64,000 nucleotides of DNA, from assembly GCF_011694815.1 (NCBI RefSeq), contig NZ_CP050177.1, positions 1,736,001 through 1,800,000 of the forward strand, written 5' to 3'. The notes below the pieces were generated by a model that searched no databases, was not told the origin of the DNA, and was given only the letters and a program-made list of their open reading frames with translations. Shown in pieces: positions 21,877 through 57,489 of this stretch (within the stretch, counting starts at the first letter, position 1; the number at the start of each line of letters is the position of its first letter). Origin of the DNA: Streptomyces liangshanensis. Its GTDB lineage: Bacteria > Actinomycetota > Actinomycetes > Streptomycetales > Streptomycetaceae. Made by a program: the position numbers and the translations under genes.

Positions 21877-21923
21877 TACGGATCAGTACAGGCATACGGA
21901 TCAGCACGGGGTACGGATCAGTA
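21877..21923. repeat. Three near-identical 12-bp repeats at the transglycosylase 3' end
   Basis: TACGGATCAG(T/C)A occurs at 21877, 21895 and 21912 (spacing 18 and 17). The last copy overlaps the stop codon of the transglycosylase gene, suggesting a short duplication that grew from its 3' end. Confidence 0.7.
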
Positions 21924-22643
21924 CGGGCCGTTCACGTTGTCGATCGAGCCGTACTTGGCGGCGGCGTAGTTGCACGCGGCCGTGATGTTGGCGACCGGGT
22001 CGTAGCTGTTCATCGACGTACCGGGCACGTGGTAGGCCCGGAAGGTCGGGTCGATGACCTGGAGCAGCCCCTTGGACGGAATGCCGGCGGCAGCGTTCGA
22101 GTCCCAGTTGTTGATGGCGTTCGGGTTGCCCGAGGACTCGCGCATGATGTTGCGGTAGATGCCGTTGTAGGTCCCGGGGATGTGGTGGGCGGCCATCACG
22201 TCCAGGGACTCCCTGATCCAGCCGTCCAGGTTGTTGCTGTACGTCTTCGCGGCGGTCTGCACGGCGATGGTGGTGCCGGTCGCGGGCTTGGCCTTGGTGG
22301 CCGCGGGGGCCGTGGCCCGGCCGCCGAGGGTCAGCTTGAGACCGGGCCGGATGACCGAGGGGTTGGCGCCGACGGCCGCGCGGTTGTCCTGGTACAGCGT
22401 CTTCCAGCCGCCACTGAGGGAGTGGGTCCTGGCGATCTTGGCGAGGGAGTCCCCCGCGACCACGGAGTAGGTGGTGACGCTCTTCTTCTCGGCGGTGACG
22501 GCGGCGCTGGTGCCGGTGGCGGCGCTCGCGGTGTGCGCGGCCACCAACGGGAGGGCGAGCGCGACACTGCCGGTCCCCACGGCGACGAGGCGCCGGGCGA
22601 GCGGGCTGAACCTGGAACGACGGTGCTTACCCTTTATGGGCAT
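21918..22643 (-). CDS. Secreted LysM-domain lytic transglycosylase (muralytic enzyme)
   Basis: Secreted peptidoglycan-cleaving enzyme. The 241 residues have a signal peptide (about 1-42, ending HTASA), a LysM domain (about 57-108: TTYSVVAGDSLAKIARTH to IRPGLKLTLGG), an Ala/Lys/Thr linker and a C-terminal transglycosylase SLT-like domain with ESSGNPNAINNWDSNA, then GIPSKGLLQVIDPTF and ITAACNYAAAKYG; the Glu of RESSG is the likely catalytic acid. ATG 22643 follows AGAGGA. A c-di-AMP-type riboswitch occupies its 5' leader, as for several Streptomyces cell-wall hydrolases. Confidence 0.93.
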   Translation of the reverse strand: MPIKGKHRRSRFSPLARRLVAVGTGSVALALPLVAAHTASAATGTSAAVTAEKKSVTTYSVVAGDSLAKIARTHSLSGGWKTLYQDNRAAVGANPSVIRPGLKLTLGGRATAPAATKAKPATGTTIAVQTAAKTYSNNLDGWIRESLDVMAAHHIPGTYNGIYRNIMRESSGNPNAINNWDSNAAAGIPSKGLLQVIDPTFRAYHVPGTSMNSYDPVANITAACNYAAAKYGSIDNVNGPY

Positions 22644-22659
22644 GACGAAATCCTCTCCG

Positions 22660-22790
22660 TCGCCTACGAGGTGAGCTGTCGGGTTCGGGCTGGAGATGCC
22701 CGGCCGCGTTATGGGCGCGACTTCACCCCTAGCCGGTCCGGTGACGGATCGGCGACTTACCTGGGTCCCCCGCTCCTGCCGTACGTGAGT
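22660..22790 (-). ncRNA. ydaO-yuaA-type (c-di-AMP) riboswitch
   Basis: Reading leftward, the leader contains GAGCGGGGGACCCAGG, a GGGGTGAAG segment, then GCCGGGCATCTCC, CCCGAACCCGACAGCT and CACCTCGTAGGCG just before the ribosome site. These blocks match the conserved core of the ydaO riboswitch, which binds c-di-AMP and usually turns expression off. Boundaries are approximate. Confidence 0.88.
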
Positions 22791-23015
22791 GGGTGAATGT
22801 GTTTCCGGGCAGCGGCAGGATTAGGCGATCCACCCGGAGTGCGCTGAACGTAAGCGAGAACGTCCGGCGGAAACAAGTCCTGAATTCACACCGCGATCCC
22901 ATCCGCGCGCCGGACCGGGCGGGGAGAGGACCGCTCGCCGGACATCCGGGAACTCAACTTTCCCTGAACGCGCGGGAAGTGGCGGACGCGAAAGAAACGC
23001 TCGCGGTTCCCTCGC

Positions 23016-45657: not shown

Positions 45658-46500
45658 TCAGCCGAAGCGGCCGTTCACGTAGTCCGACGTCCGTGGGTCG
45701 CGGGGGTGGTCGAACATGGCGTCGGTCGGGCCGTGTTCGACGATCGCGCCCGGGGTGCCCTGCTCCGCGAGGAAGAAGGCGCACGAGTCGGAGACGCGGG
45801 CCGCCTGTTGCATGTTGTGGGTGACGATGACGATCGTCACCTCGTGCTTCAGGTCGTGGATGGTCTCCTCGATCCGCCGCGTCGAGGTGGGGTCGAGCGC
45901 CGAGCACGGCTCGTCCATCAGCAGGACACGCGGCCGCACCGCCAACGAGCGGGCGATGCAGAGGCGTTGCTGCTGGCCGCCGGAGAGCGCGCCGCCGGGC
46001 TGGCGGAGCCGGTCCTTGACCTCGCGCCACAGGCCCGCCTTCGTCAGGCACTCCTCGACCAGGTCGTCCTTGCCGTCCCGGGGGGCCTTGATGCCGTTCA
46101 GCTTCAGACCGGCGAGGACGTTGTCGTACAGGGACATCGCGGGGAACGGGTTCGGCTTCTGGAAGACCATGCCGATCTCGCGGCGGGCCCGGGTGATGCG
46201 CCGCCCCCGGTCGTAGATGTCGTCGCCGTCGAGGAGGACCCGGCCCGCCAGGGACGCCGAACCGACCAGCTCGTGCATCCGGTTGAGGATCCGCAGGAAC
46301 GTCGACTTGCCGCAGCCCGACGGGCCGATGAGGGCGGTCACCTCGCGCGCGGGCATCGTCAGCGAGACCCGGTCGAGGACCTTGTGGTCGCCGAACCAGG
46401 CGGAGATCGCCGCGGCCTCCAGGGTGGCCGGGCCGCCGGTGGCGGTTCCCCGTACCGGCGGCAGGGTGAGTGTGTCGTGCAGGTCGGCGGTGTCACTCAT
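45658..46500 (-). CDS. pstB: Phosphate-type ABC transporter ATPase PstB
   Basis: Cytoplasmic ATPase that would power the PstC-PstA channel encoded 8 kb upstream on the same strand. The 280 residues carry Walker A LIGPSGCGKST, FLRILNRMHELV, VFQKPNPFPAMSLYDNV (Q-loop, a PstB hallmark), signature LSGGQQQRLCIARSLAV, Walker B VLLMDEPCSALDPTS and the switch His in VIVTHNMQQAARVSD. The start ATG lies 42 bases after the sortase-like gene, with GGAG rather far upstream. Its separation from pstCA by surface-protein genes is unusual; normal order is pstSCAB. Confidence 0.93.
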   Translation of the reverse strand: MSDTADLHDTLTLPPVRGTATGGPATLEAAAISAWFGDHKVLDRVSLTMPAREVTALIGPSGCGKSTFLRILNRMHELVGSASLAGRVLLDGDDIYDRGRRITRARREIGMVFQKPNPFPAMSLYDNVLAGLKLNGIKAPRDGKDDLVEECLTKAGLWREVKDRLRQPGGALSGGQQQRLCIARSLAVRPRVLLMDEPCSALDPTSTRRIEETIHDLKHEVTIVIVTHNMQQAARVSDSCAFFLAEQGTPGAIVEHGPTDAMFDHPRDPRTSDYVNGRFG

Positions 46501-46542
46501 GGTGTGTTCGCAACTCCTTCGGTGGCCGGGTGAGTTCGGGGA

Positions 46543-47469
46543 TCAGAGCAGGTTCGGGAGGAGCCGGGTGGCCGACGACGCGACCGCGAGACCGGCGGCC
46601 GCGAGTACGGGCACCGCGCAGATCCACGTCTGCCATCGGCCCCACACCCGGTGCGCCCAGACCGTGAGGAGCGCGGCGGCCAGCAGCAGCTGGCACCGGA
46701 GGAAGACCGAGAGCCAGGCGCCGCTCTCCCCCGCGAGAGCCTCCTCCGCCTCGTCGATGCGTCCGGAGCGGGGCGGCGCCGGCTGCACCGGGCTCGTCAA
46801 CTCGGCGTCCACCCGCAGGAGTCCGGACGGGGTGTACGCCTCGCCGGTCGCCGTGATGAGGGTCAGACGGCCGCCGCCCGCACCGATCGCCGGTGGCAGC
46901 GGGTCGCCCGGCCGCCGTACCCCCGTCACCCGGTAGACCGCCTTGCCCTGACCGGTCGTCACCTCGATCACCGCCCCCGTCGGAAGCCGGTCGAGGTGGA
47001 CGAACGGGGAGCCGTACCCCCACTGCCGGCCCATGATCAGGGACGTGCCGGCCTGCCCCGGGAGCACCGAGTCGCGGCGGTGCCCGGGCCCCGACATGAG
47101 GACACCCGACGTGGTGCCCTCCGCCACGACCTCGCGCAGGCCCAGCACGGGGATCCTCAGCAGCGCGACCGGCGCACCCAACGCGAGCGGCTTGTTGTCG
47201 TACGTCCGCTGCCCCACGGGAGCCGTTCCGAGGGCGAGTTGCTTGCGCAGCTCGTCGTGGGCCACCTCCTGGTCGCGCGCGTGCTGGAGGTGGCCGACGA
47301 CGGTGAGGCTCGCGACGAAGCCGAGCAGCACGGCCGCCAGCACGCAGAGGATCGCGCCCAGCAGCGCGAGCCCCGGTCTGGCCGGCGGCCGCGCGGACGC
47401 GGCGGCCTCCGGGGGCGGAGGCGGGGGCGGGGCCGTCGCGAGGGGCGGCGGCGGGGTGAGCACGGTCAC
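46543..47469 (-). CDS. Sortase-fold membrane protein lacking the catalytic cysteine
   Basis: Resembles class E/D-type sortases, which anchor LAXTG/LPXTG proteins to the cell wall, but is probably inactive as a transpeptidase. The 308 residues have a Pro-rich cytoplasmic N-terminus, one membrane helix (about 33-58), the sortase barrel (about 100-225) with His130 in GPGHRRDSVLPGQ, GTSLIMGRQWGYGSPFV and the Arg219 region LLRVDAEL, then a C-terminal helix pair (about 255-305). Where the catalytic TLxTC should be, it reads LTLITATG, with Ala207 in place of Cys. GTG 47469 follows GAGGAG. It lies between the LAXTG protein and pstB. Confidence 0.85.
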   Translation of the reverse strand: MTVLTPPPPLATAPPPPPPPEAAASARPPARPGLALLGAILCVLAAVLLGFVASLTVVGHLQHARDQEVAHDELRKQLALGTAPVGQRTYDNKPLALGAPVALLRIPVLGLREVVAEGTTSGVLMSGPGHRRDSVLPGQAGTSLIMGRQWGYGSPFVHLDRLPTGAVIEVTTGQGKAVYRVTGVRRPGDPLPPAIGAGGGRLTLITATGEAYTPSGLLRVDAELTSPVQPAPPRSGRIDEAEEALAGESGAWLSVFLRCQLLLAAALLTVWAHRVWGRWQTWICAVPVLAAAGLAVASSATRLLPNLL

Positions 47470-47540
47470 GGAGGTGCGCTCCTCGCGGGACGAAGGGTGT
47501 GAGTAATGAAGGGGGGTAGGGGAGGGGCCCGGCGGGGGGC

Positions 47541-49028
47541 TCAGTGCTGCGGGGGCGAGAAGTTCAGCAGCCCCCGGCGGCGTACGAACAGCACGCACGC
47601 CGCGCCCGCCATGACGAGCGAGAGCGCGCCGAGCCCGGCCGCGAACGCCTGCGTGCCGGTGGACGCGAGCTTCCCGCCGCCACCGGAGGAGTCGCCGCCG
47701 CCACCTGATGTACCGTCGCCACCGCCACCGCCACCGCCACCGGCACCGCCGTCGCCGCCCCCGTCCGCGCCCGACGATCCGCCGTCGGTGCCACTCGGCT
47801 CCGGGGTGACGGATTCGCTCGGCTCGTCCGACGGGTCCGGGTCCGGGCCGTCCTCGCCGCCCACCGTGAAGGCGAACGCCACGCTGTGGCCGCCCGCCGC
47901 GTCCTCGGTCAGCGTCAGCGTGTGCGCCCCGTCGGCGATGTCCTCGGGCACGGTGAAGGGGTACTTGTCGACCGTCCCGTCACCGTTCGCCGTCGCGTCG
48001 GCGAGCGCCGCCTCCGACGCGGCGAGGGCGACCTTGACCTTGGCGTCCTTGCCGTACCCGCGCGCGGTGACGTACACCTTCTGGCCCGCTGCGAGCTCCG
48101 GGTTCGGGTCGAGCGTCGCGCCCGCCTCGTCGATGACGTCGAGATCGGCGGGCTCCTCCGGCCCGGTGGGCGAGCCGCTGGGGCTCGGGGAGGGAGCGGT
48201 GACGGGTACGCCGAGCGTGCCGGTCGACTCGGTGAACGCCTCGGTGTCGGTCGGCGTGAACACGGCTTCGTACAGGGCGGGGTTGGCGTCGGCGGGCAGC
48301 GTCGTCGTGATCCGGGCCTTGCCGTCCGTGACGGCGACGGAGCCCAGCTCCGTCGGGGTTCCGTGGGTGCTGCGGAAGACGACCGAGCCGGCCGCCTCGG
48401 CCGGGGTCACGGTGGCCGTGAGGTCGATCGTCCGGCCGGCCGGTCCCTCGGACGGGTCGGCGGTGAGCGTGGTCTGCGTGGACCGTACCTGCACCAGGCT
48501 CCACGTGCCCGCCGTCACCCGGATGACGGCGCTGAAGTAGCCGTTCACGACGTTGTCCACGGGCGCGCAGCCGGCCGCCAGCACGTAGTCGCCGTCGAGG
48601 ATCCGACCGTCGGGGCCGGTGCTCTCGGTGTAGAGCGAGGCCTCGTCGAGCGAGACGTTGGCCGGGCCGTCCGGGCTCGTCCGGGACAGGTCCGCCACGA
48701 CGGGGTCGGTCCCGTCGAAGGGCGCGCCGTCGACGGAGGTCGCGACCCGCTCGCGGTAGGTGCCGTCCGCGTTGGCGAGTTCGACCCGCACGTTCTGGTA
48801 CGGGGAGGCCGGGTCGGCCGGCGCCGGGCAGGGCGCGCTGGTGGTGAGGGTCCCGGACAGCACGTCCGCGGTGCTGCCGGTGGCGGGTTCCAGGGTGAAC
48901 GTGCCGATCGGTTCGTCGGCCGCCCGTGCGGGGGTGGACAGCGCGAGCACCGCCGCGAGCATGCCGAGGAGCAGTGCGCAGCAGGTCAGCAGGCTGACGG
49001 GTGATCTGTGTGGTGCCAGGCGGTTCAT
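47541..49028 (-). CDS. LAXTG-anchored surface protein with Ig-like domain and Gly-rich stalk
   Basis: Cell-wall surface protein. The 495 residues have a signal peptide (about 1-36, ending ARA), two beta-rich regions (about 40-165 and an Ig-like repeat at 175-275 with TTLTADPSEGPAGRTIDLTA), a Ser/Pro linker, a further beta domain (about 295-400), a long Gly/Asp/Ser stalk (about 400-452), the sorting signal LASTG at 454-458, a membrane helix and basic tail RRRG. The LAXTG form fits class E sortases. It is followed after 71 bases by the Cys-less sortase. ATG 49028 follows GGGGGAG. Ligand unknown. Confidence 0.88.
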   Translation of the reverse strand: MNRLAPHRSPVSLLTCCALLLGMLAAVLALSTPARAADEPIGTFTLEPATGSTADVLSGTLTTSAPCPAPADPASPYQNVRVELANADGTYRERVATSVDGAPFDGTDPVVADLSRTSPDGPANVSLDEASLYTESTGPDGRILDGDYVLAAGCAPVDNVVNGYFSAVIRVTAGTWSLVQVRSTQTTLTADPSEGPAGRTIDLTATVTPAEAAGSVVFRSTHGTPTELGSVAVTDGKARITTTLPADANPALYEAVFTPTDTEAFTESTGTLGVPVTAPSPSPSGSPTGPEEPADLDVIDEAGATLDPNPELAAGQKVYVTARGYGKDAKVKVALAASEAALADATANGDGTVDKYPFTVPEDIADGAHTLTLTEDAAGGHSVAFAFTVGGEDGPDPDPSDEPSESVTPEPSGTDGGSSGADGGGDGGAGGGGGGGGDGTSGGGGDSSGGGGKLASTGTQAFAAGLGALSLVMAGAACVLFVRRRGLLNFSPPQH

Positions 49029-49106
49029 GCGGTCTCCCCCACGGGGTGTGGTCGGTAGAGGTCGGAAGGACTGGGACGGGTTCGGAAGGGCTCGGGTACG
49101 CCGTGG

Positions 49107-49133
49107 GGCCGGGCACCCTGGGGGTGCCCGGCC
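49107..49133 (-). terminator. Terminator between secreted PstS-like and LAXTG genes
   Basis: A perfect 12-bp stem (GGCCGGGCACCC, complement at 49122-49133) with a TGG loop, 27 bases beyond the PstS-like stop, so the LAXTG gene probably has its own promoter. Confidence 0.75.
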
Positions 49134-49159
49134 GGCGCGCGGTCAGGGAGCGGTGGTGA

Positions 49160-50122
49160 TCAGCGCTCGCCCTTGAGGGTCGTGGAGCCGCAGGCGGACC
49201 CGAGGCCGCCGAAGCCGTAGTTGGCGATGGCGGCGGTGGTCACGGCGTTGCAGACCTTGGACGTCGAGCCGACGAAGGTCGTCGAGATCGGCGAGACGGT
49301 CAGCTTGTTGGTGGGGACGACGTTGTAGACGTCGCGCAGGTAGGGGAAGCTCGGGTTCAGGGTGGTGCCGATACGCGGCGCCTGGCCGTTGACCGAGCCG
49401 AGCAGCGAGGAGCCGCGGCGGTTCGGGACACCGGCGATGCCCCGGCCCTGGGCGTAGTACTGGGCGACCGAGTACGGCGCGATGTCACCGGCGGTGTCCA
49501 GCACGGTGCCGTCGTTCTCCTGCGAACCGCTGGTCACGCAGGCGCCGGGCGTGGTGACGCCGATGGAGCTGAGGAAGAACTGCCGCGTGCCGGAGCTGGC
49601 CTGCGGCAGCAGCGGCGTCAGGGCGACGCCGTTGAGGGAGGTGAGGGTGCACTCGTAGACCGACTTGAGCTGCGCCGTCGTCAGGTTGGTGGGCAGGCCG
49701 CTGCCGCTGCGGTACGCGTAGGAGACGGCGTCCTTGGCGAACGGGATCCAGGTCAGGTCGGTCGTGGTGGTGTCCGCGGGCGTCCGGGAGGAGCGCGCGA
49801 AGTCGAGGCAGCCCGAGGCGGTGTCGACGGCGGTGCGCAGCGCGTCGATGCCGGCCGAGGAGCCGTTGGGGCGGGCGATCACACAACCGCTTGTACGGGT
49901 CTGGATGGTGGCCGAGCCGGTCGCGTTGTACGAGGCGATCGTGGCGCCGCTGTCGACGGTGTTGCCCAGGCCGTTCAGCACGTCCTGGGTGGTGTCGGAG
50001 CCGGTGCCCGCGAGGACGCGGACGGACGGCGGGTCGGCGGAGGCGGGGGTGGTCAGCAGGCCGAGGCCGAGGGCGGCCGCGCCGACGACGGCGCCGATAC
50101 GGGCGTAGGACTTGACGTTCAT
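49160..50122 (-). CDS. Secreted PstS-like substrate-binding protein without anchor
   Basis: Exported binding protein of the PstS-like (PBP superfamily) type. The 320 residues have a signal peptide (about 1-28, ending PASA), VLAGTGSDTTQDVLNGLG, SGCVIARPNGSSAGIDALR, LDFARSSRTP and ISTTFVGSTSKVCNAV. Cysteines occur as a likely pair set. It lacks the lipobox and the C-terminal stalk and helix seen on its two larger relatives, so it should be freely secreted or periplasmic-face. ATG 50122 follows GGAGGAGAA. It lies between two parts of the cluster with 250 bases upstream and a terminator downstream, so may be transcribed alone. Confidence 0.85.
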   Translation of the reverse strand: MNVKSYARIGAVVGAAALGLGLLTTPASADPPSVRVLAGTGSDTTQDVLNGLGNTVDSGATIASYNATGSATIQTRTSGCVIARPNGSSAGIDALRTAVDTASGCLDFARSSRTPADTTTTDLTWIPFAKDAVSYAYRSGSGLPTNLTTAQLKSVYECTLTSLNGVALTPLLPQASSGTRQFFLSSIGVTTPGACVTSGSQENDGTVLDTAGDIAPYSVAQYYAQGRGIAGVPNRRGSSLLGSVNGQAPRIGTTLNPSFPYLRDVYNVVPTNKLTVSPISTTFVGSTSKVCNAVTTAAIANYGFGGLGSACGSTTLKGER

Positions 50123-50372
50123 TTCTGTTCTCCTCCGTGGAGCAAGCACAGCAAGGAATGGACGTGCAAGCAGAATCCGGATTTCACAGCCACCGGCCCG
50201 TCGGCCGGCCACCGCAAACCATTCCTTACGGCGATGGGGGACGGCCACCAACTCCGGCAACGAATCAGGTTACGTGCGCATTGCCTAGGCATCTCCAAAC
50301 AGATCGGCGAAAGGGAAGACGAAAGGGAATTCCCGCCCGGCCGGCCGCGCGGGAATTCCCCTCCGACGGGCG

Positions 50373-52928
50373 TCAGGTGGGCCGGCGCACCGAGATCCGC
50401 AGCAGTACGGGCCCGGCCAGCGCGGCCGCGCCGCCCGCCACGAGCACGCCGAGCAGCACCCAGCGGACGACGCCCAGCACGCCGCCGGGTGTCATCCCTC
50501 CCGACCGCGCGACGTTCTTCGGGCCGTTCGCGGAGTCGGCCGGCGGGGTGGCCGGCGCACCGCTCCCGGGGCCGGCCCCGGCGGCGGAGTCCGCGCTCGC
50601 GGCGCCGCCGCCCCCCGTACCGGCCGCGCCGCCCCCCGCATCCCCGCCGGAGCCGCCTGCGGAGCCCGCGCCCCCGTCCGGGCCCGGACCGGAACCCGAG
50701 CCGCCGCTCCCCGCGCCCCCGCCCCCGGACGAGGCGCTGCCCGCCGGGTCCTCCGACGCGCCGGCGTCGGGATCGCCGCGCTCCAGGCGGTCCGCCGCGG
50801 CCTCCGTCTGACGGCGGAGCGCGGCCGGCAGCGGTACGTACCCGGGCGGCAGCTCGCCGGGTCCGTACCCGGGCGTCTGGCCCTGACCTGCCGCGTAGCG
50901 CAGCACGCGCGCGTAGTCCTGCCGTACGGACGTCTCCAGGCCGGTCGACGCGGCCGCGTAGGTCAGGGTGGTGAGCGGGTAGGCCCCGTCCCTGGCCTGG
51001 CCGGGGTCGGCCGCCCTGACGCCGGGCACGGCCGTGTCCTTCATCCCGGCGACGGCCTTCAGCATGGACGCCTCCGTGGGCTTCACGAACCGGCCGTCGG
51101 AGGTCCGCAGCGCGGCGACGCCGAGCTGGTAGCGCGCGGCGGAGGCGGTGTCGACGAGGCCGTACGCCCGCCGGCTGCCGTGCGTCGGCGGGACACCGAC
51201 CAGCTTGACTCCCTCGGGTGCCGAGGTGTCCTGCTCGATGCGGGACTTCCCGCCGTTGCTCCCCCGGCGGACGAAGAGCGCGCCCTGGTGCATGTCCGCC
51301 ACATAGGGCGCCCAGTCCAGTTGGCCGTACGTGATGCTCTTCCCGTCACTGGTGAGTTCGGTCTCGGTCGGATCGGCCTTGGGGAAATCGACCGGAACCT
51401 TCGAGTCCAGGTCCAGTTCCCGGTAGTACGGATTCACCTTCGTGCCCCACGGATCCGCTGCGCCCTCCAGGAAGGAGCGCGCCTCGGAATCGGCCTGCAC
51501 ATAGCGCCAGACGATCGCGTTCACGTCGGACACGTCCCCGATCACCATGATCGCGCCGGCGTTCGCGAGCGGATTGAGGGCGCCTTCCTGGAACTGGGGA
51601 TTCAATTGCAGGAATTCGGGGTCCACGACGATCGACGCCGCGTTTCCCGCCAGGTGCGCGGGGACCTTCGACTCCGCGCCCGTCATCAGGCGCACGTCGT
51701 TGACGTAGGAGGCCGTGAGGATCTTCGCGAGCAGGCGCGGGGTGAGTTTGATGTCCGCCACCTGCGTCCGGCCCTCCCGCTCCCAGAAGAACCCGACCGT
51801 CAGCCCGCTCAGCGCCACCGGCGCGTGCACCACGGGCGGGGCGTCGTCCGGCGCCTCGACGGGGTCGATCGTGAAGGCCAGCCCGGGGGCGGAGTCCGTG
51901 GGGGCCGTGATCTGCGAGCGGGCGAAGTCCTCGCCGGACTGGCTGAACGTGAACCGGGTCGCCCCGCCGGCGCAGAGCCGGGACTGCCAGGACGTGATGG
52001 CGTCGGTGGCCATCTCCGAGCCGATCATCCGCCGCTCGGCCTTGTCGAGCGCGCAGCCGTCGCCCACGGGCTGGAAGCCCATCGGGAACACCAGCCGCTG
52101 GGCCCAGTTGGAGGTGCTGAGGGGCGAGCTCTGGAGCATCTGGTTGTTGCCGCCCGTGCCGTCGACGTCGTGTTCGCCGCGTGGCACCACCACCAGCCAG
52201 CAGTCGCGGACCTTCGCCGCCGTGCTCGTCCCGAGGCGCTCGCCGCAGCCCAGGTGCGGGGCCTCGCGCGCGGTCTGGACCGGGAAGACGAGGTCGCCGG
52301 TACCGTCGGCCCGGGTGATGCCGAAGAGCTCCTCGTTGGTGTCGAGGTTGCTGAAGTAGGTGAAGTCACGGCTGCCCGTGGTCGGGGGTTCCCCGTTGGC
52401 GGGGCGGAACGGTACGAAGGACTCGGCGGTGCCGTTGTTCACGTACTCGGTCTCCGCGGGGTCGCCGTCGAGCTGCCTGAGGGCCACCAGGCCGCCGCCC
52501 TTGTCGCCCTTCTTCGCCACGCCGAACACACACTGCTCGCGGTCGGGGCCCGCCGGGTCGTCGCCCCAGCACTGCATGACCTGGAGGTAGTTGTACGACG
52601 GGTAGCCGGTGGTCGGCTTCCCGCCCGTCCAGCTCACCCGTACCCCCTGCGACCGGAGGTCCTTCGTCTGGTCCACCGTCACCTTGAGGTCCGAGAAGTC
52701 GTCCAGGGTCCCCTTCCGGCCCTGGACGGTGACCGCCGAGGACGCCCGTTCCTGCTCCGCCGCCCGTGCCTCACCGCCGGGCGGCAGCGGCAGCACCGCG
52801 AGGACCAGGGCCCCGAGCAGCGCGCACACGCCGCCGGCCCTGCGCCGATGGGATGCGCGCCCCGTCGCCGCCCGCCCCCTGAGCGCCCGCCCCAGCACCG
52901 TTCGCCCCCGCACCGCGCTCCCGCTCAT
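50373..52928 (-). CDS. Large surface-displayed PstS-like protein with C-terminal membrane anchor
   Basis: 851-residue exported protein. After a basic N-terminus and signal-like helix (about 28-60) comes a beta-rich region with QVMQCWGDD and EQCVFGVAKKGD, then a PstS-like domain spread over about 330-690 (LTVGFFWEREGRTQVADIKL, then TPRLLAKILTAS; YPLTTLTYAAAST late). Residues about 735-815 form a Gly/Ser/Ala-rich stalk, followed by a membrane helix (GVVRWVLLGVLVAGGAAALA) and a short basic tail. ATG 52928 overlaps the pstS stop (ATGA), so it is translated with pstS. No characterised relative is recognised; a ligand-presenting or scaffold role is inferred only from context. Confidence 0.82.
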   Translation of the reverse strand: MSGSAVRGRTVLGRALRGRAATGRASHRRRAGGVCALLGALVLAVLPLPPGGEARAAEQERASSAVTVQGRKGTLDDFSDLKVTVDQTKDLRSQGVRVSWTGGKPTTGYPSYNYLQVMQCWGDDPAGPDREQCVFGVAKKGDKGGGLVALRQLDGDPAETEYVNNGTAESFVPFRPANGEPPTTGSRDFTYFSNLDTNEELFGITRADGTGDLVFPVQTAREAPHLGCGERLGTSTAAKVRDCWLVVVPRGEHDVDGTGGNNQMLQSSPLSTSNWAQRLVFPMGFQPVGDGCALDKAERRMIGSEMATDAITSWQSRLCAGGATRFTFSQSGEDFARSQITAPTDSAPGLAFTIDPVEAPDDAPPVVHAPVALSGLTVGFFWEREGRTQVADIKLTPRLLAKILTASYVNDVRLMTGAESKVPAHLAGNAASIVVDPEFLQLNPQFQEGALNPLANAGAIMVIGDVSDVNAIVWRYVQADSEARSFLEGAADPWGTKVNPYYRELDLDSKVPVDFPKADPTETELTSDGKSITYGQLDWAPYVADMHQGALFVRRGSNGGKSRIEQDTSAPEGVKLVGVPPTHGSRRAYGLVDTASAARYQLGVAALRTSDGRFVKPTEASMLKAVAGMKDTAVPGVRAADPGQARDGAYPLTTLTYAAASTGLETSVRQDYARVLRYAAGQGQTPGYGPGELPPGYVPLPAALRRQTEAAADRLERGDPDAGASEDPAGSASSGGGGAGSGGSGSGPGPDGGAGSAGGSGGDAGGGAAGTGGGGAASADSAAGAGPGSGAPATPPADSANGPKNVARSGGMTPGGVLGVVRWVLLGVLVAGGAAALAGPVLLRISVRRPT

Positions 52929-54685
52929 CGCTCGTCCCCTCTGCGCCGCGCCCGTCCGGCCAGCGCGCGGGCCACGACCGGCGGCCCCACGACCACCCCG
53001 AGCAGCAGCGCCGCCGAGAGCGCCATCAGCGCGCCGCGCAGGCCCATGGACCCGTCGGACGCCAGGGTGACCGGGGTGCCGACCACGCTCGCGTCGCCCG
53101 TCCCGGCCTCGCCGGCCAGTTGCTCGCCCGTGTCGGGGTCGACCGCTCCCCCGGTCCCCGCGCCTCCCGCCGCCGCCCCGCCGGAAGCGTCCGGCGAGCC
53201 GCTCGTACCGCTCCCGCCCGCACCGCTCCCGGCGGGGTCGGTCGCGCCGCCCGAGGCGGAACCGCCGCCCGTGGCCGCCGAGTTGCCGCCCCCGGTGGAC
53301 CCGGAGCCCGAACCGCCGCTCGTACCGGCGGAGTTCGTACCGCCGCCGTTGCCGCCGTTGCCGCGGGCGGCCGGGACGACCGGAGTCTCCTCGCGCGCCG
53401 CGCCCGCCGTACCGGTGGAGCACTGCGTGGGGCCCCGCTTGTCGCACTCCTTGGGATAAGGCGCCTTCTTCGCCAGGGTGTTGGAGCCGTCGGAGGAGAA
53501 GGTGGGGTTGCGGCAACTGCTGATCCTGATGTCCCCGACCGGGGCGCCCGGGATACGCCGGACCTGGTCGAAGCCCGCCTGCACCAGGTTCATCGGCAGG
53601 GGCGAGTAGCCCAGTTCCTCCGCCTGCTGCTGGCCGTCGCAGAGGAAGTAGTTGGCGAAGGTGCCCAGCGACTTGCCCTTGCCGGTGGTGAAACCGAGTT
53701 CGGTGGAGGTCGGGACGATCATGTAGCTGTAGCTGGAGAGCGGGTAGGACCTGCGGTCCCGGTTGGCGTAGACGCCGTCGAGGATCTGGGTCAGGTAGTT
53801 CGGCGACTGCTTGTTGTCGTTGATACGGGCCTGCTGGAGCGCCACCGCGACACTCGACGAGGTCGGTTCGACGTAATAGCCCTCGCTGTTCAGCATCTTG
53901 GCGACCGGGAAGCCCGTCTTGATCGCGTACGAGTACTCCACGTACGTGATCGCGCCCTCGAAGCTGGACTGCTTGGTGAAGCCGGACACACCCAGCGAGC
54001 CGGACTTGGCGACGGTCGAGGAGCCGGGGATCACCGGGTAGTACGACGTCATCCCGCACGGGGTGGAGCGGCCGGCCCTGCGGCAGTAGTCGTTCCACAG
54101 CGACCCGTGCTTCTTGGCCATCCAGGTCGTGAACTGGGCCGTCGTACCGGAGCCGTCGGAGCGGACCACCGGCACGACGCGGCGGGCCGGGAGGGTGAGG
54201 CCGGGGTTGTCGGCCTTGATCTCCGGGGCGTTCCACATGGTGATCCTGCCGGTGAAGAGCTTGGTGATCACCTCGCCGGACAGCCGCAGGTTGGTGACCC
54301 GCTTCCCGCCGATCCTGAGGTTGTACATGAACGACGTGCCACCTGCGACGATCGGCATGTAGGCGTAACTGCGCTTGGTCGGCGGCACGTCCGTGGTGCG
54401 GCCCTCGGTCAGCCCGTACGGGATCTCCGAGACGCCGAAGTCGGAGACACCGTTCTTGAACTCCTCGCGGCCCACGGAGGAGCCGGACGCCGAGAAGTTC
54501 ACCGTGAGCCCGATGTTGGCGCCGATGTTGCGCCGCCACTGGTCCAGCGCGTTGGAGCTCCAGGTCGACCCCGAACCGCTGAGCTTGGTGTACGACGCGG
54601 CCCACGCCGGCGGACGCACGGCGGCCAGCGCGCAGGCCAGCGCCGCGAGTAACACGAGCGTGCGGGTGAGCGGTACGGGTCTCAC
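52925..54685 (-). CDS. pstS: PstS phosphate-binding protein with Gly-rich stalk and membrane anchor
   Basis: Substrate-binding protein of the PstCA importer. The 586 residues have a signal peptide (about 1-29), a complete PstS fold (about 30-395) with LSGSGSTWSSNALDQWR, SASGSSVGREEFKNG and VVRSDGSGTTAQFTTWM as ligand-binding loops, and LQQARINDNKQS. Unlike usual PstS (about 370 residues, lipoprotein) it then has a long Gly/Ser/Ala stalk (about 430-530) and a C-terminal membrane helix (about 555-575) with basic tail RRRGDER. GTG 54685 overlaps the pstA stop and follows GGGAG. So the binding domain is displayed outside on a tether. Confidence 0.9.
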   Translation of the reverse strand: MRPVPLTRTLVLLAALACALAAVRPPAWAASYTKLSGSGSTWSSNALDQWRRNIGANIGLTVNFSASGSSVGREEFKNGVSDFGVSEIPYGLTEGRTTDVPPTKRSYAYMPIVAGGTSFMYNLRIGGKRVTNLRLSGEVITKLFTGRITMWNAPEIKADNPGLTLPARRVVPVVRSDGSGTTAQFTTWMAKKHGSLWNDYCRRAGRSTPCGMTSYYPVIPGSSTVAKSGSLGVSGFTKQSSFEGAITYVEYSYAIKTGFPVAKMLNSEGYYVEPTSSSVAVALQQARINDNKQSPNYLTQILDGVYANRDRRSYPLSSYSYMIVPTSTELGFTTGKGKSLGTFANYFLCDGQQQAEELGYSPLPMNLVQAGFDQVRRIPGAPVGDIRISSCRNPTFSSDGSNTLAKKAPYPKECDKRGPTQCSTGTAGAAREETPVVPAARGNGGNGGGTNSAGTSGGSGSGSTGGGNSAATGGGSASGGATDPAGSGAGGSGTSGSPDASGGAAAGGAGTGGAVDPDTGEQLAGEAGTGDASVVGTPVTLASDGSMGLRGALMALSAALLLGVVVGPPVVARALAGRARRRGDER

Positions 54686-55977
54686 TGGGAACTCCCTGCG
54701 TCTGTAACGGATTTCGGGGCGGCCTGCGCCTGGTCGGGCGGGCCGGCCCCGTCACGTGCGGCCGCCCCGCCGGGCACGGCCGCCCTGTCTCGCACGGCGG
54801 CGCGTGCGGCGAACCGCTGGGCGTCCTTGCGGGACGCCTGTACGCGGCGGTGCTCCTGGCCGCGGCTGAGCCGGCCCGAATTCCGGCCGCCGATCACCCG
54901 CGCGAGGACGAACAGCAGCAGGACCAGGCTCATGAGGGCCGCCGCCGTGCCGAACCCCCGGGCGATCATGGTGGGTTCGGGCGACTTGACGAACTCGAAG
55001 ACGGCCAGCGGGAGCGAGACCTGCGGCCCGTTGAAGGGGTTCGCGTTGAGCTCGGCGGTGAATCCGGCGGTCAGCAGCACCGGGGAGGTCTCCCCGACGC
55101 CGCGCGCCGTGCCGAGGATCACCGCGGTGGTCAGTCCGGACCGGGTGGTGGGCAGGACGACGTGCCACACCGTGCGCCAGCGGGACGTGCCGAGGGCGTA
55201 CGACGCCTCGCGCAGGGTGCCGGGGACGAGGCGGATGACCACGTCGGAGGCCCGGATGATGATCGGCAGCATCATCACCGCGAGCGCGAGGGAGGCCGCG
55301 AAGCCGGACCTGCCGAGGCCGAGGGTCAGGATCACCGTGGCGTAGACGAAGAGGCCCGCGACGATCGACGGCAGCGCGGTCATCGCCTCCACCACGGTCC
55401 TGACCAGCCGGGCGAAGCGTCCTGGCACCTCGTTGAGGAAGACCGCGCACACCAGGCCGACGGGGACGGTGAAGGCGAGCGCCAGGGCGATCTGCTCCAG
55501 CGTGCCGACGACCGCGTGCAGGACGCCCCCGGCGGACAGCGGGTCGAGCGGGCCCGCCGCGCGCATGTCCTCGGTGTAGAAGTTGAGGTGCGGCAGCGCC
55601 TCGCGGCCCTCGAAGAGGGTGTAGACGACCACGAACACCAGCGCCACGAGCATGAGGAGCGCGAGGCTCTGGATCACCACCGCGGCGACCTTGTCGCGGA
55701 CGGCGGGGCCCGACTCGTCGAACGACACGAGGAGCGCGTAGAGCCCGAGGAACAGGACGTACGCGACAACGACGAAGCCCACGGCGCCGTTGAAGGGCAG
55801 CAGCCGGGTGAAGAACAGCGCGGTGAGCGAAAGCGACGCGGCGGCGGCGCCGACGAGGGCGTACACGTCGCTGCCCCGGGTCAGCGACACGTTGCGGCGG
55901 CGTTCGCCCGACTCGGCGGCGGGTGGCGGCTGTTCGGCGGGCAGGGTGGTGCGGGGGCGCGGGGGCGCTGTGGTCAT
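54682..55977 (-). CDS. pstA: Phosphate-type ABC permease PstA
   Basis: Membrane subunit of the importer. The 431 residues exceed the usual 280-300: an extra N-terminal cytoplasmic segment and three early hydrophobic stretches (about 35-130) precede the six-helix core, and a basic Ala/Arg tail (about 380-431) follows. The ATPase-docking loop YALGTSRWRTVWHVVLPTTR lies near 270-290, and TARGVGETSPVLLTAGFT is a typical PstA segment. ATG 55977 lies 12 bases after the pstC stop; its own stop overlaps the pstS start. Orientation and overlaps make pstC, pstA, pstS and the large PstS-like gene one operon. Confidence 0.93.
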   Translation of the reverse strand: MTTAPPRPRTTLPAEQPPPAAESGERRRNVSLTRGSDVYALVGAAAASLSLTALFFTRLLPFNGAVGFVVVAYVLFLGLYALLVSFDESGPAVRDKVAAVVIQSLALLMLVALVFVVVYTLFEGREALPHLNFYTEDMRAAGPLDPLSAGGVLHAVVGTLEQIALALAFTVPVGLVCAVFLNEVPGRFARLVRTVVEAMTALPSIVAGLFVYATVILTLGLGRSGFAASLALAVMMLPIIIRASDVVIRLVPGTLREASYALGTSRWRTVWHVVLPTTRSGLTTAVILGTARGVGETSPVLLTAGFTAELNANPFNGPQVSLPLAVFEFVKSPEPTMIARGFGTAAALMSLVLLLFVLARVIGGRNSGRLSRGQEHRRVQASRKDAQRFAARAAVRDRAAVPGGAAARDGAGPPDQAQAAPKSVTDAGSSQ

Positions 55978-55989
55978 GGCGGGGATTCC

Positions 55990-57000
55990 CTACTCGCTCG
56001 CCGCGCCGGAGCGGCTGCGGGCGACGATGGAGGACGCGGCGAAGTTGACGACGAGGGTCATCAGGAAGAGCGCCAGGCCGGCGGCCATCAGGGCGGACAT
56101 GCCGAACTCGCTGGCCTCGCCGTACCGCAGGGCGATCAGGGAGGAGATCGAGCTGGTGCCGCTCTGGAGGACGTGCCACTGGATGTCGAAGATCGGCGAG
56201 ATGACGAGGTAGACACCGATGGTCTCGCCGAGCGCCCGGCCGAGCCCGAGCATGGTCCCGCCGATCATGCCGCCCTTGCCGAACGGCAGGACCACGCTGC
56301 GGATCATGCCCCAGCGGGTGGCGCCGAGCGCGTACGCGCCCTCCCGCTCGCCCACCGGGGCCTGCGAGAACACCTCGCGCATGACCGAGCAGACGATGGG
56401 CGCGACCATGAGCGCGACGACGATGCCCGCGATGAGTGTCGAGGAGGCGTAGACGGTCGCGTTGGCGAGCGGGTCGCGCGGGTCGGCGCCGTCGACGGCG
56501 AGGAAGGGGACCCAGCCGAAGTACGTGGAGATCCAGCGGGCCGTACCGAGCACGTGGTTCTGGAAGAAGAACAGGCCCCACAGCCCGTAGACCACGGAGG
56601 GCACGGCGGCCATCAGGTCGACCACGCCGACGAGGGTCTGCCGGACGCGGGGCGGGGCGTACTCCGCGATGAAGAGCGCGCCGCCCACCGCGAGCGGTAC
56701 GGCGACCAGGATCGCCACCAGGGCGATGAGGATCGTGCCGACCAGTACGGCGGCGATGCCGAAGCGGCCGGCGTCCGGCTCCCAGGTCTCGGTGGTCAGG
56801 AAGGACCAGCCGGCCCGGGAGAGCGCCTGCCAGGCCCGGTAGAGCAGGAACCCGCCGACCAGCAGCATCACGGCGAGCACGAACCCGCCGCCGGAGCGGG
56901 CGACACCGCGGAAGATCCGGTCCGGCAGCCCGGGATCGGCGTACAGGCGTCGGGGCCCCTCGGACCCCGCCCCGGGGCGCTCTTCGATTCGCGTCGTCAC
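55990..57000 (-). CDS. pstC: Phosphate-type ABC permease PstC
   Basis: Membrane subunit of the importer, first gene of the operon. The 336 residues contain about six helices, beginning FVLAVMLLVGGFLLYRAWQA near 40, with AVPSVVYGLWGLFFF, the docking loop YALGATRWGMIRSVVLPFGK near 220 and GLGRALGETIGVYLV, all PstC features. GTG 57000 is preferred because CGAGG lies nine bases upstream; GTG 57009 has no room for it. Upstream lie GTTCAC motifs that may be part of a PhoP-type control region. Confidence 0.93.
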   Translation of the reverse strand: MTTRIEERPGAGSEGPRRLYADPGLPDRIFRGVARSGGGFVLAVMLLVGGFLLYRAWQALSRAGWSFLTTETWEPDAGRFGIAAVLVGTILIALVAILVAVPLAVGGALFIAEYAPPRVRQTLVGVVDLMAAVPSVVYGLWGLFFFQNHVLGTARWISTYFGWVPFLAVDGADPRDPLANATVYASSTLIAGIVVALMVAPIVCSVMREVFSQAPVGEREGAYALGATRWGMIRSVVLPFGKGGMIGGTMLGLGRALGETIGVYLVISPIFDIQWHVLQSGTSSISSLIALRYGEASEFGMSALMAAGLALFLMTLVVNFAASSIVARSRSGAASE

Positions 57001-57045
57001 ACCGGTCACCCTCGGGGCGGGTGATTGACACGTGCGCTCCGGTGT

Positions 57046-57091
57046 GTGAACGAGGTGTGCCCTAGGGGCAACTTCCGTTCACATCGTTCAC
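57046..57091. promoter_or_regulatory. GTTCAC motifs upstream of pstC (possible PHO box)
   Basis: GTTCAC occurs at 57077 and 57086 (plus strand) and once at 57046-57051 on the minus strand. Streptomyces PhoP binds GTTCACC-type direct repeats, but the 9-base spacing differs from the usual 11, so this is only suggestive. Confidence 0.3.
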
Positions 57092-57489
57092 CGGGTCTCC
57101 CCCGGTTCCCCCAACTCGTCTTCGACCAGTGCGAAATGACCGATCAGCCCGACGAACCGGCCCAGCGCCGCACGGCAGGTGGAGTACCTCTCGTACGTCC
57201 GTGAGGACGCCGCGACGACCGTTCCGTCGGGCAGGCGTAACCACCAGGCCCAGCCGTCGCCCCCCGGGCCGTGCTGGACGCCCCCGGCCACCTTGTCGAC
57301 CTGGGAGCACATCTCAGCGAACGCCCGCGCGCAGGCCGCGCTGTCCTCGAAGGTGTCCGCGGACACCCCGACCACGCGGCCGTTGTACGCGATGAGCCGC
57401 CACCCGAACCCGCCGGCCGGATCGGTGTCGATCTGACACCGCGCCCCGCCCGCGGTGGTGGCTCCGCCTAAACCGTCCGAACGCTTCAT
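57088..57489 (-). CDS. DUF1508 (YegP-like) protein with two TTA codons
   Basis: Small cytoplasmic protein built of two YegP/DUF1508-like halves: FGWRLIAYNGRVVGVSADTF and WAWWLRLPDGTVVAASSRTY, each a beta-hairpin followed by a helix with cysteines (SAACARAFAEMC, YSTCRAALGRFV). The family's function is unknown. The 133 residues are encoded with TTA at codon 7 (57469-57471) and codon 84 (57238-57240), both bldA-dependent, so synthesis is likely limited to late growth. ATG 57489 has GAGGGG two bases upstream. It lies just upstream of the pst-like operon. Confidence 0.75.
   Translation of the reverse strand: MKRSDGLGGATTAGGARCQIDTDPAGGFGWRLIAYNGRVVGVSADTFEDSAACARAFAEMCSQVDKVAGGVQHGPGGDGWAWWLRLPDGTVVAASSRTYERYSTCRAALGRFVGLIGHFALVEDELGEPGETR

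Follow-up and report, generated by a model that had tools for sequence, protein, structure and literature searches.

Here we report a cluster of eight genes in Streptomyces liangshanensis in which the parts of a Pst phosphate importer are joined to a sortase-fold protein that has lost its catalytic residues. The stretch of DNA analysed (hereafter the window, to which all feature positions refer) has 64,000 nucleotides and covers positions 1736001-1800000 of a 7.7 Mb genome in one contig. On balance, and with moderate confidence, we interpret the cluster as encoding a second phosphate ATP-binding cassette (ABC) importer that would be docked in the cell wall and would carry non-catalytic scaffold proteins. 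The Pst ABC importer is a known kind of transporter, and this variant is new as far as our searches of the open-access literature go, where no description of a Pst/dead-sortase cluster of this type was found. The eight genes share the minus strand and span 57009 to 45658, in the following order:

55990-57009, minus strand: pstC, permease (TIGR02138, E = 6e-78, above cut-off)
54682-55977, minus strand: pstA, permease (TIGR00974, E = 2e-63, above cut-off)
52925-54685, minus strand: pstS, phosphate-type binding protein with a C-terminal transmembrane anchor (PF12849, E = 1e-36, above cut-off)
50373-52928, minus strand: bigS, large PstS-like protein of 851 amino acids (PstS fold with lost phosphate ligands)
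49160-50122, minus strand: secS, secreted PstS-like protein with no membrane anchor (profile matches to phosphate-binding proteins)
47541-49028, minus strand: LASTG wall protein with an immunoglobulin (Ig)-like domain (Big_3_5, E = 2e-5, below cut-off; sorting signal)
46543-47469 (open reading frame to 47598), minus strand: pSrt, dead class E-like sortase (PF04203, above cut-off)
45658-46500, minus strand: pstB, ATPase (TIGR00972 is the best family, with 339.7 bits against a cut-off of 343.2, that is 3.5 below)

For secS and pSrt the probable start lies inside the longest open reading frame. Overlaps or short gaps join all eight genes, and the run is consistent with a putative single operon. 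The analysis bore out the order and the common strand given in the initial annotation, as well as the separation of some 8 kb that it had seen between pstB and the permeases (8.2 kb from pstB to pstA).

A second Pst system beside the canonical one

By family membership the core of the cluster is that of a Pst phosphate ABC importer, for which transport itself is predicted. PstC shares ~60-86% identity with its relatives of the same gene order and PstB 68-88% across relatives, and the Walker A, signature and Walker B motifs are present in the PstB translation. The PstS protein matches PstS structures in the PDB (best E = 2e-46), and a comparison with eight canonical PstS sequences indicated that the pocket motifs (GSG/S, SS, S-D/E and RSDGSG-type) are kept in most of 26 rows, the exceptions being L132, L134_11 and those rows that begin late. 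These pocket motifs are phosphate-like and favour phosphate over another anion as the probable ligand, so that of the two options in the initial annotation, phosphate or another anion, the first gains support and the second does not.

The same genome carries at ~4.28 Mb a canonical pstS-pstC-pstA-pstB locus with a lipoprotein PstS. When PstC was used as query, all 12 of the tested genomes with the cluster held the cluster copy or copies and one further copy, and the four genomes of the genus tested that have no cluster held a single copy only (4/4). The further locus, read in seven of the 12 genomes, and the sole locus of another genome (G031) have the order pstS-pstC-pstA-pstB (in G038 the two permease genes are called as one), and a lipobox is visible in six of eight canonical PstS rows, the remaining two beginning late. 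Compared with the PstSCAB importers of Streptomyces and Escherichia coli, the cluster is alike in PstC, PstA, PstB and a phosphate-type PstS, but it differs in that pstB stands 8 kb away behind extra genes, that bigS, secS and pSrt are added, that PstS is anchored by a C-terminal helix in place of a lipid, and that a separate canonical copy exists in the same genome. Because the transporter core (PstC, PstA, PstB and the PstS motifs) is present, we read the loss of the lipid anchor as a variation of the Pst kind.

Conservation of the neighbourhood

The cluster is conserved across the phylum, and a chance neighbourhood is rejected. Among 26 loci compared around relatives of pSrt, pSrt is followed by pstB in every case and all seven core genes are found in 17; of the other nine, one (L035) is part of a split cluster, and the rest, eight in number, come from short contigs or stand at the end of a contig. 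In the genome with the split cluster (G012; L035 and L089) pstC-pstA are at 7.71 Mb and pSrt-pstB at 8.77 Mb, and a LANTG tail stands directly before pSrt. When named genomes were scanned, 116 relatives were obtained, and the best 80 of them gave loci mostly from Streptomyces, and also from Wenjunlia, Actinacidiphila, Microtetraspora, Planotetraspora, Kineosporia and Hamadaea. The complete order pstC-pstA-pstS-bigS-secS-pSrt-pstB was present in 54 of these 80, and pstB started 21-327 bases past the pSrt match in 79, the remaining locus (L216) ending there.

A close match to pSrt (E of 1e-30 or better) was found in 20 of 61 genomes searched, the source genome included: eight of 37 in the genus (again with the source genome), 11 of 14 in the family labelled f3, and G055. 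In this sample the second Pst machine or its pSrt is carried by seven of the 36 other genomes of the genus. Several f3 genomes hold two paralogous clusters that differ in gene order and in their small surface proteins (L039, L043-L045, L048-L054), the usual order of the second type being DUF1508, secS, a small secreted protein, bigS, pstC, pstA, pstS, pSrt and pstB. In G055 (L042 and L091), an actinobacterium of 1.4 Mb and 57% guanine plus cytosine, the system is spread over two contigs, one with pstC, pstA, a pstS-like gene and the start of bigS, the other with secreted proteins, pSrt and pstB.

A sample of 396 actinobacterial genomes was searched separately with the pSrt profile and with bigS. 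The profile matched at 1e-20 in 161 genomes, because intact or ordinary sortases match it too. In 20 neighbourhoods drawn from the upper part of the list of these matches, the match stood beside pst genes in nine genomes besides the source genome (G239, G148, G245, G325, G271, G287, G075, G061 and G423), and the remaining 11 stretches had no pst genes, weak ATPase matches aside. The search with bigS matched at 1e-10 in 15 genomes, ten of which are the source genome and the nine with a pst-linked pSrt, where bigS is near full-length in seven and partial in the cluster in three (G061, G075 and G423). The other matches (in G331, G442, G286, G339 and G153, with one more in G148 at G148:C53) were rejected as ordinary pstS genes, five of these six places having other pst genes alongside and the sixth, on a contig of 4.5 kb (L247), having none; one more small match in G423 falls on its pstS. 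Hence bigS and a pst-linked pSrt were found in an identical set of ten of the 396 genomes, and in the more distant of these the genes stay within 20 kb despite shuffled order and strand. The initial annotation had proposed a second, non-canonical Pst-type system and had named two findings that would count against it, a neighbourhood not conserved in relatives and a sole pst locus; neither was found.

Loss of catalytic residues in pSrt

The sortase fold of pSrt is indicated by PF04203 and by matches to PDB sortases. In fold and in sequence profile the protein resembles the class E sortases (SrtE1 of S. coelicolor, 5cuw; SrtE of S. avermitilis, 5go5 and 5go6), with a score of 68.6 bits that lies below the 160-bit cut-off of the NCBIfam class_E_sortase model. 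Unlike these enzymes, it has lost the equivalents of His251, Cys320, Arg329 and Tyr229 and has an extra C-terminal helical hairpin with an LLPN end. The His and the Cys are lost in all aligned copies of three scans (27/27, 9/9 and 81/81), the Arg being kept only in L134 among the nine; the place of the His is taken by Arg in 81/81 copies, that of the Cys by Ala, Ser or Gly, and that of Tyr229 by R, L, Q, K or V in 81/81. Two wrong-frame rows (L022 and L024) were left out of the 27-row comparison, and the reading of the Cys is taken from these three scans, because in a further one the two reference rows of the Cys column are shifted by one. Cys residues occur in the scanned stretch of five of the 81 copies, four of them in membrane helices and one (L206) just past the PF motif, and none at the active site.

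The pSrt proteins of pst loci form one clade in the tree and are under purifying selection, as judged from the ratio of nonsynonymous to synonymous substitution rates (dN/dS). Homologues outside pst loci, by comparison, have all catalytic residues intact (11/11). Among them, the LLP-ended sortases of other Actinomycetota (L135 and L137-L146) share with pSrt a C-terminal hydrophobic segment and an LLP-type end, but they differ in having the catalytic residues and no pst cluster in the stretches read; several adjoin an ABC ATPase gene with only a weak match to pstB. pSrt itself begins with a helix and finishes with a C-terminal helical hairpin ending in LLPNLL. The LLPN at the very end of this membrane hairpin is invariant in 18 aligned copies.

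Two further class E sortase genes, above cut-off with 260 and 240 bits, stand in tandem elsewhere in the genome, and the one that was read has the full motif set (GHY, AGHR and TTC..R). Given these separate genes, the anchoring of the LASTG protein need not involve pSrt. The initial annotation spoke of a system built with a sortase-fold protein, and in the sense of an anchoring enzyme this is not supported, since pSrt lacks the His, Cys, Arg and LAXTG-reading Tyr. In the portions of PMC5882110 considered here SCO3737 is a different divergent sortase and the pair SCO3849/SCO3850 is also named, with no pst link given. Among the 120 best matches listed, pSrt is entered in the named records as a sortase (in many cases as 'class E sortase') and bigS as hypothetical or uncharacterized; the annotation therefore hides the system.

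The PstS-like proteins and the wall partner

The three PstS-like proteins with different anchoring of the initial annotation were recovered, and the anchoring was revised: no lipobox is present in the translations of pstS, bigS or secS, the first two end in a transmembrane segment (in pstS behind a Gly/Ser-rich linker), secS is plainly secreted, and bigS is degenerate at the phosphate site. The predicted structure of bigS, good outside the ends and the linker, comprises an N-terminal beta domain, a PstS fold at ~295-723, a disordered linker and the C-terminal transmembrane segment; in the fold search the results were filled by matches of the PstS domain, and the beta domain received no fold assignment. 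The ligand columns of bigS, located by profile and sequence alignment rather than by coordinates, were numbered by what we take to be the E. coli PstS ligands Ser38, Arg135 and Gly140. In one alignment (A2) the place of Gly140 holds Asp in 21/21 rows, that of Ser38 an acid in 18/21, and that of Arg135 is not basic in any of 20 rows listed of the 21; a second alignment (A6) agrees, with Asp in 26/28 and an acid in 26/28. We consequently reject bigS as a probable phosphate binder, its ligand columns being lost. It also differs from PstS1 and PstS3 of Mycobacterium tuberculosis in the extra beta domain, the C-terminal transmembrane segment and the lost ligand residues. A match of PF17648 (Luciferase) to bigS (E = 0.09) was discarded as noise. 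The profile of secS matches PDB phosphate-binding proteins (1twy, E = 1.5e-16, and also 4gd5) and, by hhalign, pstS (90%), and the SGT and GSDT motifs are kept. One of the three PstS-like proteins carries Gln in place of the pocket Arg.

The wall protein is of the sortase-anchored type, having in its translation a signal peptide, KLASTG, a hydrophobic stretch and an RRR basic tail. The slot between secS and pSrt was in view in 72 loci, and the protein in it has an LxxTG signal by the strict pattern in 29/72, all from one Streptomyces lineage; six slots missed by this pattern (L151, L152, L158, L161, L166 and L185) hold LASTG, MASTG or MAATG proteins. A second Streptomyces lineage has a longer frame for secS, to which Big_3_5 and fn3 domains are fused in L036, the one member tested; such a fusion supports a putative link of the Ig-like wall protein with secS. 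In some other taxa the slot may resemble WxL/WxL-interacting wall systems: the peptidoglycan-binding domain of WxL-interacting proteins (WxLIP_PGBD) is above cut-off in L039 (f3), L200 (Hamadaea) and L225 (Planotetraspora), and below it in L198 (Kineosporia). The WxL domain in L200 is below cut-off, Pfam gave WxLIP alone for L039 and L225, and the putative WxL-like proteins of other loci were read from their C-termini; no WxL or WxLIP protein was found in the window. Here, in contrast to the WxL systems, these proteins sit within a pst cluster of Actinobacteria, and in one Streptomyces lineage a LAXTG-type protein stands in their stead.

Upstream region and promoter signals

Upstream of pstC the window holds two more features related to the cluster:

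57041-57062, minus strand: weak double element resembling a PHO box, ahead of pstC (11.1 out of a maximum score of 17; p 0.06 by shuffling)
57088-57489, minus strand: DUF1508 (YegP-like) gene upstream of pstC (PF07411, E = 2e-7, above cut-off)

DUF1508 homologues are also found upstream in L031, L034 and L048-L054, sometimes doubled at the start of the f3 paralogous clusters. The PHO box was scored as a double element (maximum 17) of a 7-base unit that we assume to be the PHO unit, with 60 shuffles per single-locus test; the form as two 11-nt repeats is in agreement with PMC7866108. Canonical pst promoters from six genomes scored 15.3-17 and cluster promoters (n = 42) lower, 6.8-13.6. A score of at least 11 was reached in 20 of the 42 cluster promoters, compared with 17 of 246 among the controls (p 2e-8 in a rank test, a value inflated by kinship), and the shuffle p was below 0.05 in 15 of 32 single-locus tests, uncorrected, none of which could survive correction at 60 shuffles. 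Phosphate control of the cluster is only suggested, because the cluster scores are low, the p value of the window's own element is 0.06 and the related loci are not independent.

Apart from the cluster, the window holds a cyclic di-adenosine monophosphate (c-di-AMP) riboswitch (RF00379, 71 bits) at 22648-22805 on the minus strand; the gene that follows it downstream, at 21918-22643, has an apparently secreted product.

A wall-docked importer and its alternatives

In the model that we draw from these results, phosphate would be captured outside the membrane by secS and PstS, with bigS and pSrt as non-catalytic scaffold or gate proteins on PstCA. By means of its membrane hairpin, or of the groove that formerly took the substrate, pSrt might hold the wall protein or another partner and so keep the pump fixed beneath a capture layer bound to the wall; attachment of the LASTG protein would fall to the class E sortases encoded elsewhere in the genome. 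We further propose, tentatively and as a possibility somewhat short of even, that the sortase lost its activity once in an early actinobacterial lineage and became a fixed part of the importer, holding a wall capture protein over PstS and bigS. Display of a ligand at the wall is offered with caution, because the LAXTG-type signal is limited to one Streptomyces lineage.

Several observations weigh against this interpretation. At what is presumably the place of the pocket Asp of E. coli PstS (Asp56), Glu is found in the PstS of the window and in several relatives. In the second Streptomyces lineage (21 loci) the slot has 134-282 bases, too small for a separate wall protein. The most distant genomes show a shuffled gene order and weak matches to secS in some cases (45 bits in L132, 50 bits in L136). 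The dN/dS of pSrt climbs to 0.285 and 0.331 in more distant pairs. Strong PhoP control was not shown in the promoter scores, those of the cluster being below the canonical range and its own element short of significance. Tyr229 of SrtE1 has been proposed to read the Ala of LAXTG (PMC5148588), and because its equivalent is lost as well, pSrt may be unable to bind that signal; its docking, be it on PstCA or on the LAXTG protein, is putative.

The strongest of the alternatives, which we consider rather unlikely, is that of a Pst-derived importer whose ligand is not free phosphate but, for example, a phosphate ester, a polymer that bears phosphate or some other oxyanion, passed on by bigS and secS. 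A canonical-type pst already covers ordinary phosphate uptake in this genome, and three PstS-like proteins of which bigS is without phosphate ligands and another has Gln for the pocket Arg, together with the Glu that some members of the family have at the Asp56 position, would fit such a ligand; the main PstS, however, retains the other pocket motifs and matches by profile PstS proteins of known structure, and the weak PHO-box-like element before pstC appears as a group trend. Canonical Pst also acts in signalling, and loss of catalytic or ligand residues is frequent in regulatory pseudoenzymes. With two cluster proteins having lost such residues, one could envisage a sensor or surface structure with no pump, in which a PstCAB-like core signals the phosphate state with pSrt and bigS as signalling partners. 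We hold this to be improbable, as PstB keeps its ATPase motifs, pstC and pstA score as permeases, and family profile searches of the eight cluster genes found no phoU, kinase or regulator among them.

Two other explanations have very little probability. The PstSCAB parts are by themselves ordinary, as they would be in a common second phosphate importer with chance neighbours, yet the conserved order, the shared presence of pSrt and bigS, the single pSrt clade and the purifying selection contradict it. Equally remote is an active pSrt that is dedicated to the LASTG protein by means of unusual catalytic residues: the fold is that of a sortase and a LAXTG protein adjoins it in one Streptomyces lineage, but the nucleophile is missing, the His has become Arg throughout, the homologues outside pst loci keep every residue, and many pst loci without a LAXTG protein still carry pSrt. 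We reject an active sortase on the residues, on the tree and on the separate class E sortases.

In Streptomyces, antibiotic production and development are both under the control of phosphate uptake, for which a single pstSCAB model is in use. A review from 2021 on phosphate transport in these bacteria describes, in the parts considered here, one pstSCAB operon for Streptomyces and does not use the word 'sortase' (PMC7866108). With a conserved dead sortase, the non-enzymatic roles of such proteins can be put to a clear test, as can the way in which Gram-positive cells couple a transporter to the wall. If the wall-docked importer and the single loss of sortase activity proposed above are true, pSrt would represent a pseudoenzyme of the sortase type whose role in nutrient transport is structural, within a phosphate uptake machine that spans the envelope.

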